A stretch of DNA of 64,000 nt from Bacteroidaceae bacterium (lineage in GTDB: Bacteria > Bacteroidota > Bacteroidia > Bacteroidales > Bacteroidaceae): positions 1-64,000 of the forward strand of contig JAEEGS010000009.1 in NCBI GenBank assembly GCA_016280445.1. The letters are read 5' to 3'. Under the pieces are notes generated by a model. It saw only the letters and a list, made by a program, of their open reading frames with translations, made no database searches and was not told where the DNA came from. The position numbers were made by a program, and so were the translations under genes. Positions 27,118 to 28,312 of the stretch are shown here, in pieces (positions within the stretch are counted from its first letter, which is position 1; every line of letters begins with the position of its first letter).

Positions 27118-28077
27118 TTATCTGCCTCCCTGCAGTATTTCTATTATTTTAGGTACAATCTGTTTGCGCACTAGATTTTCCTTGGAATAGGTTACACCTG
27201 TACGGAGCGAGGGGCCGAAGATAGCCTCGGCAACAGCCTGTGTTCCTTCTCCGTAATATATGAAATAGATGCCGTCTATCTCATAATCCTTGTAGTCCGA
27301 TAGAAGAATCTCGCTATCGCTCATGCCATCGTAATTAATGGCGGCATCAGCCATTTTGCGGTTGATTTCGTCCACCTTGTCCTCCAAATGCAACTGGGTG
27401 ACAAGCGCCTCCCATGCCACGGAGTCCATATGCTGTGTGGTAGTCATGCTGAGATTACGTGTGTCGGACAGCAATCCGGCAAGCAGTATCTTGGCAGTCT
27501 CATCATCAATTCTGACACCCAGTTCCCTGTACATCTCGTAAATGATGGTGCAGGTGGCCCCTATCATCTCTCTGCGCACGTAGGGTATGTTACTATTCGA
27601 AATGTCGCCCTCCACATGGTGGTCTATCTTCTGCAGGATGATGGCCTCTCTGGCACCGTCCACACACTGGGCATAGTCGGTGTGGTCGGTCAGAATTAGA
27701 CGTGTCTGTGGCACCACACTACTCTTCAACTCGGGCAAGGAAAAGCCAAATTCACCTGCAATATAGGCTGTCTCGCGGTTAGTTGCACTCGACACCTTTG
27801 CCTTGCAGTTGTAGCCAAGTGCTCTCATCAGCTTGGCATAGCCCAACGACGAACAGACAGCATCCGCGTCAGGCGTTTTGTGGCCATACACGTATGTGGT
27901 GTCCGTCCCCCAGTCGAGCGATTTCAGCATGGCACGAATTGCAGCGCCTTGCTCGGATGTCTTTACTACATCGTCATCCGACGAGCATGATGTGAACACA
28001 AAATAGCCACAAATCATCAGGATGGCGGCAAGCATCCAACAGTTGTCCTTTTGCATGTTTCTTTCCTTATGTTCCAT
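27118..28077 (-). CDS. Lipoprotein-anchored family-II (DHH/DHHA2) inorganic pyrophosphatase-like protein
   Basis: Signal/lipobox MLAAILMICGYFVFTSC|SSDDD; GHKTPDADAVCSS, LTDHTDYAQ, KIDHHVEGD, AGLLSDTRN, NLVRKQIVPKI; -7 TAACTTTG at 28110-28117 (alternative start 28056). Confidence 0.85.
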   Translation of the reverse strand: MEHKERNMQKDNCWMLAAILMICGYFVFTSCSSDDDVVKTSEQGAAIRAMLKSLDWGTDTTYVYGHKTPDADAVCSSLGYAKLMRALGYNCKAKVSSATNRETAYIAGEFGFSLPELKSSVVPQTRLILTDHTDYAQCVDGAREAIILQKIDHHVEGDISNSNIPYVRREMIGATCTIIYEMYRELGVRIDDETAKILLAGLLSDTRNLSMTTTQHMDSVAWEALVTQLHLEDKVDEINRKMADAAINYDGMSDSEILLSDYKDYEIDGIYFIYYGEGTQAVAEAIFGPSLRTGVTYSKENLVRKQIVPKIIEILQGGR

Positions 28078-28109: not shown

Positions 28110-28117
28110 CAAAGTTA
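28110..28117 (-). promoter_or_regulatory. -7 promoter element (TAACTTTG) of the lipoprotein pyrophosphatase gene
   Basis: CAAAGTTA on + strand, about 33 bp upstream of the chosen start. Confidence 0.6.
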
Positions 28118-28242: not shown

Positions 28243-28312
28243 CACACTCACAAAGCTCACGAGGCTAACGACGTTAGGCTCGTGAGCTTTGTGGAAGGAG
28301 GCTCGTGGAGGA
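28243..28312 (+). repeat. Dispersed palindromic intergenic element, copy B
   Basis: Contains 45-nt palindrome CACAAAGCTCACGAGGCTAACGACGTTAGGCTCGTGAGCTTTGTG (28249-28293; 21 of 22 pairs complementary) then GAAGGAGGCTCGTGGAGG. Confidence 0.8.

Follow-up and report, generated by a model that had tools for sequence, protein, structure and literature searches.

Family II inorganic pyrophosphatases (PPases) with secretion signals appear to form a lineage of their own in gut and rumen bacteria, and one of its members has lost 62 residues from the DHHA2 domain. That member lies in the window, a stretch of 64,000 nucleotides from a Bacteroidaceae bacterium (contig JAEEGS010000009.1). We think it probable that the window copy is still exported but is inactive or strongly impaired after this loss, and that a separate HAD-type enzyme handles cytosolic PPi. 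The coding sequence, for an exported family II PPase-like lipoprotein, occupies positions 27118-28056 on the minus strand (312 aa from the ATG at 28056). The first-pass annotation had described the open reading frame 27118-28077 (minus strand; 319 aa if the ATG at 28077 is used as an alternative start), with a hydrophobic N-terminal segment, the sequence TSC|SSDDD and the motifs GHKTPDADA, DHTDYAQ, DHH, SDTRN and RKQ. All of these are present in the translation.

The DHH core and the likely substrate

The DHH domain is complete; the window protein matches nearly the full Pfam DHH profile (8.3e-18). Its best solved relatives are family II Mn-PPases (E ~1e-33). The equivalog cut-off of NCBIfam PRK05427 was not reached (165.5 versus 283 bits). 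Eighty loci encoding relatives were fetched, and 55 sequences were aligned. GHKTPDADA (27859-27885) contains the metal ligands corresponding to B. subtilis H9, D13 and D15, which are invariant in 55/55 sequences. DHTDYAQ (27667-27687) supplies D75, likewise invariant in the alignment. DHH (27616-27624) corresponds to D96, H97 and H98, and SDTRN (27454-27468) includes the ligand D149. Lys256 (27289-27291) aligns with the substrate-binding residue K205. The RKQ motif (27160-27168) provides R297 and K298, the equivalents of R295 and K296. All of these elements are on the minus strand. The window copy keeps every metal and phosphate ligand (H9, D13, D15, D75, H97, H98, D149, K205, R295 and K296), and the catalytic residues are invariant or nearly so across the 55 sequences. 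B. subtilis PpaC and the S. gordonii PPase (1k23, 1k20, 1wpm) also have this DHH core, these metal ligands and K205, R295 and K296; for intact relatives, the resemblance to these enzymes extends to the complete two-domain fold.

Intact members are best read as Mn/Co-dependent enzymes that hydrolyse extracytoplasmic PPi. In them, the DHH core with its two metals would carry out the reaction together with the DHHA2 lid and its K205, R295 and K296 equivalents. Hydrolysis may free phosphate for uptake, or may clear PPi made outside the cytoplasm. Action on another phosphoanhydride instead of PPi, such as short polyphosphate or a nucleoside polyphosphate, is unlikely. In its favour, motif IV reads SDTRNL in most clade members, whereas aligned classical PPases have SDTLL or similar, and the next DHHA2-type match is yeast exopolyphosphatase PPX1 (2qb6), which has the DHH-DHHA2 architecture in common with the clade. 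However, PPX1 is a longer protein and a far weaker match: in a PDB search with a profile of the intact relatives, full-length family II PPases scored 1e-54 to 1e-68 and the yeast enzyme 1e-13. In both sequence and fold comparisons PPases take all the top places, far ahead of other proteins, and K205, R295 and K296 are kept.

A 62-codon deletion in DHHA2

Nucleotide alignment of the window copy with five close relatives (L055, L048, L068, L069 and L090) reveals that 186 nt (62 codons) are missing as one clean in-frame block, with collinear DNA on both sides. The junction, GAGATA|GACGGC, is at 27276-27277 (minus strand). In the relatives, the ends of the gap are marked by a short imperfect repeat, GGTGGC ... 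GACGGC. Since these 62 codons are absent between 27277 and 27276, the match to the Pfam DHHA2 profile is confined to positions 2-31 of 126 (E=0.049) and is below the cut-off. Conversely, the intact relative P0002/L038 passes the Pfam cut-offs for both DHH (61.5 bits) and DHHA2 (49.3 bits, along its entire length). For the window protein, the whole DHH/DHHA2 signature set had been reported; the motif strings are indeed all there, but the DHHA2 domain is incomplete. Compared with B. subtilis PpaC and the S. gordonii PPase, about half of DHHA2 is missing.

AlphaFold models of the window protein and intact L038 were built with the same relatives. The L038 model contains two strands (262-272 and 298-308) and a helix (273-293) with no counterpart in the window model. 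According to the models, the lost 62 residues would be the central strands of DHHA2 together with its long helix. The L038 model superposes both domains on 1i74, 1k20, 2enx, 1wpm and 2iw4 (TM 0.84-0.87, 3.1-3.4 A), with lower TM values for 1k23_A, 9m0m and similar entries. For the window model, only the DHH core fits well (1wpn, TM 0.92, 1.8 A). Its full-length matches have TM values of ~0.57-0.65, mostly at ~8-9 A rmsd, and the two domains do not superpose together. In a related enzyme, CBS-PPase, full removal of DHHA2 abolished PPi hydrolysis (PMC10742508). The window copy is thus probably a deletion derivative, inactive on PPi or strongly impaired. The earlier suggestion that it may hydrolyse extracellular pyrophosphate does not sit well with the loss of half of the lid and the inactivity of DHHA2-less CBS-PPase (PMC10742508); it is a better fit for the intact relatives than for the window gene.

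Could the window protein still be an active exported PPase, with a shortened lid that brings K256, R297 and K298 to the DHH site? We consider this unlikely. All catalytic residues are kept, the deletion is in frame and there is no sign of relaxed selection. Outside the gap, the window copy has zero changes at columns that are >=85% conserved in the 55-sequence alignment, and its pairwise dN/dS (0.12-0.22) is similar to that of intact sisters. The overall confidence of the model is also high (mean pLDDT 90), a value that may reflect the relatives in the alignment. Against activity stand the absence of the DHHA2 central strands and long helix, the failed Pfam DHHA2 match, the poor superposition of the full-length model on solved enzymes and the restriction of the deletion to this copy among the relatives compared. 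Two window-only changes near active-site loops, K204 to M and S296 to V, are unseen in the other aligned members. By its sequence, the window copy does not resemble an ordinary pseudogene. Because the catalytic residues are all kept and dN/dS is normal, the deletion is either recent or tolerated, or else an error of the assembly. If real, it makes the window copy a natural experiment on how large a DHHA2 lid the enzyme requires.

An error in the draft assembly, with an intact exported PPase in the organism itself, is also improbable. The genome is a draft of 84 contigs, the rest of the gene is pristine and the deletion was seen in none of the relatives compared. Yet the gap is exactly in frame and has collinear flanks, and its ends coincide with a short imperfect repeat, which is common in real deletions. 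Furthermore, a second copy in the same genome is broken too. This paralogue, L002 (1495-2319; C61:15984-16799), retains the lipobox and the first ~155-161 residues, followed by an in-frame tail of ~119 residues. In the tree, L002 groups with the intact proteins L075, L077 and L078. The tail had no PDB match, is single copy in the genome and gave E=0.14 with Pfam AAA; by our own reading of the sequence, it faintly resembles the end of an AAA ATPase. L002 looks like either a recombination fusion or a chimeric assembly. With L002 truncated and the window copy lacking 62 codons, both lipoprotein-PPase copies of this genome are damaged. Elsewhere in the family, shortened or interrupted frames occur in L079, L080 and L099 (328, 257 and 89 aa, respectively), which suggests repeated decay or assembly errors.

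Distribution, cytosolic PPi and gene neighbourhood

The relatives come mainly from Prevotellaceae and Bacteroidaceae of the rumen and gut, including rumen Prevotella and Segatella baroniae B14 (L055); Parabacteroides, Paludibacteraceae and Fibrobacter are also represented. The tree had an ingroup of 57 rows (the window protein, its relatives and one Selenomonas plasmid protein) and was rooted on plasmid-borne family II PPases, some with long branches. In this tree, the plasmid-borne proteins, which are family II PPases of the cytosolic type, fall outside the exported group (support 100/98). The Selenomonas member, which is basal, has a signal of its own. The sequences thus point to a real lineage of exported family II PPases in gut and rumen bacteria, in which a DHH-DHHA2 enzyme would have gained secretion signals in Bacteroidales and Fibrobacter. 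When 395 Bacteroidota genomes were sampled with the clade profile, scoring few candidates per genome, only the window's genome was found, a hint that few Bacteroidota have the family. A distant family II PPase-like protein on a plasmid of Photobacterium sp. DA100 (L129) also has a signal-peptide-like N-terminus, and perhaps represents an independent export event.

A recent review presents soluble PPases as housekeeping enzymes of the cytoplasm (PMC11210485), and known family II PPases are described as cytosolic. By contrast, members of the exported clade carry a lipoprotein or Sec signal, with a linker ahead of GHK. Our literature search, of partial coverage, turned up no account of exported family II PPases, and nothing on Prevotella lipoproteins of this family or on an extracellular or periplasmic pyrophosphatase. 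Within the scope of that search, the group is previously unremarked.

The window's genome encodes a second PPase candidate. A HAD protein (C30:10478-11257), with no visible signal peptide, has PDB relatives that include the BT2127 inorganic pyrophosphatase of Bacteroides thetaiotaomicron (3qu2 and others, 5.6e-89); its top PDB match is 3dv9, labelled beta-phosphoglucomutase. BT2127 catalyses the same reaction by annotation but differs from the exported clade in having an unrelated fold and no signal peptide, and is presumed to be cytosolic. A BT2127-type HAD PPase is present in 20/21 genomes examined. No family I PPase was found in the window's genome, and among the genomes examined this type is restricted to Fibrobacter. 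A membrane PPase was found neither in the window's genome nor in its genus; it occurs in four genomes, all outside the genus. Distribution of the exported PPase is patchy, with copies in 11/28 genomes of the genus and in 9/14 of those of good quality. Given this patchiness, and the separate cytosolic-type HAD PPase, the exported enzyme is accessory. Cytosolic PPi would be left to the HAD-type enzyme. The first-pass annotation had proposed a role other than the removal of biosynthetic PPi. The leaderless, BT2127-like protein, a candidate for the second cytosolic PPase that the annotation had suggested looking for, makes such a role plausible; for the window copy, PPi hydrolysis is doubtful. An exported clade that spans two or three phyla, in hosts that have a cytosolic-type PPase too, points to an economy of extracellular PPi, or a related compound, in the rumen and gut, of which the papers searched gave no description. 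Cultivated hosts, Segatella baroniae B14 among them, would allow a direct test.

Large surface proteins are encoded beside some of the relatives. In Segatella baroniae B14 (L055, 7058-17125), the PPase gene is tightly flanked by a lipoprotein gene and by one for a LamG-domain protein (at least 2658 aa), the two gaps being 23 and 27 nt. L113 also has a similar lipoprotein gene and large LamG genes close by. On pSRC7, a mobilizable plasmid of Selenomonas ruminantium (L126), a family II PPase with a Sec-type signal is encoded between a TpsB transporter and TpsA, a giant filamentous adhesin. The TpsB-PPase-TpsA and lipoprotein-PPase-LamG arrangements underlie a further reading. Exported family II PPases might be a distinct surface class, placed beside large adhesin or lectin-like proteins and hydrolysing an extracellular phosphoanhydride within a surface module, with the window allele as a functional, minimal-lid variant. 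We regard this as quite doubtful. The window copy has no adhesin or LamG-type neighbours, and a conserved gene neighbourhood was rejected; no neighbour family occurs at more than 8 of the 80 loci, and several of those are from near-identical genomes. The surface-protein neighbourhood is best treated as a lead.

The lipoprotein signal and start of the gene

From the ATG at 28056, the N-terminus reads MQKDNCWMLAAILMICGYFVFTS|CSSDDD. The predicted lipoprotein signal peptide, MQKDNCWMLAAILMICGYFVFTS (27988-28056, minus strand), has a hydrophobic core with a mean Kyte-Doolittle value of 2.55. Translation more likely begins at this ATG (MQKDNCWMLAAIL...) than at 28077, because the starts of the closest relatives align at the corresponding Met. 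A promoter-like box, TAACTTTG (28110-28117, minus strand), lies upstream of both candidate starts. It resembles the Bacteroidota -7 element, and L069 and L048 have similar -7-like boxes at the same place relative to the gene. Between this putative promoter and a vWA-like gene there is an inverted repeat (28249-28293; ~21/22 paired), CACAAAGCTCACGAGCCTAACG ... CGTTAGCCTCGTGAGCTTTGTG, which is probably a terminator.

The signal is followed by the putative lipidated residue, Cys24 of the lipobox (FTS|C; 27985-27987, minus strand), recognised by inspection and by its conservation in relatives. The Cys is present in 52/55 aligned sequences. The three exceptions are L093 and L100, which have no signal, and L117 (Lachnospiraceae), which has an N-terminal hydrophobic anchor. 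Acidic residues usually follow: in 31 of 53 distinct N-termini, two or more of the five positions after the Cys are acidic, a count in which one row, L103, was scored on the wrong Cys. Hence export of the clade looks real and conserved. A cytosolic enzyme made from a start downstream of the apparent signal is highly improbable; an internal ATG does exist (Met43 of the 312-aa form, 15 residues before GHK), but Met43 occurs in 12/55 sequences, against 52/55 for the lipobox Cys, and the promoter-like box is upstream of the signal, so this start was rejected.

In the window copy, the polar and then acidic residues after the Cys, SSDDD (27970-27984, minus strand), are like the Bacteroidota lipoprotein surface-export signal. 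Experiments have shown that surface exposure is driven by the consensus SDDDD of B. fragilis and by the signal C-X-K-(D/E)2 of Capnocytophaga (PMC5080379). The surface lipoproteins described there have the same Cys, then Ser and acidic residues, as the window copy; their cargo is mainly Sus-like and other glycan-acquisition lipoproteins, not PPases. The proposal that the window protein is an exported lipoprotein is supported by the conservation of the signal across the clade and by the closeness of CSSDDD to the tested B. fragilis sequence. Clade members would be made as outer-membrane, probably surface-exposed, lipoproteins.

Two unrelated proteins have comparable signals. In a genome of the same genus (G023), a complete phosphoglycerate mutase, GpmI (L023; Pfam 7e-78 and 2e-75), carries a similar-style lipoprotein signal, PTACSSNDDNP, and on this basis is predicted to be another glycolytic enzyme for export; no paper on surface phosphoglycerate mutase lipoproteins in rumen Prevotella was found in our literature search. 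A HAD-type phosphatase lipoprotein (L036, 490-1623, genome G027) has a signal peptide ~62% identical to that of the window PPase. Thus, signal peptides seem to be common to unrelated lipoproteins in these genomes.
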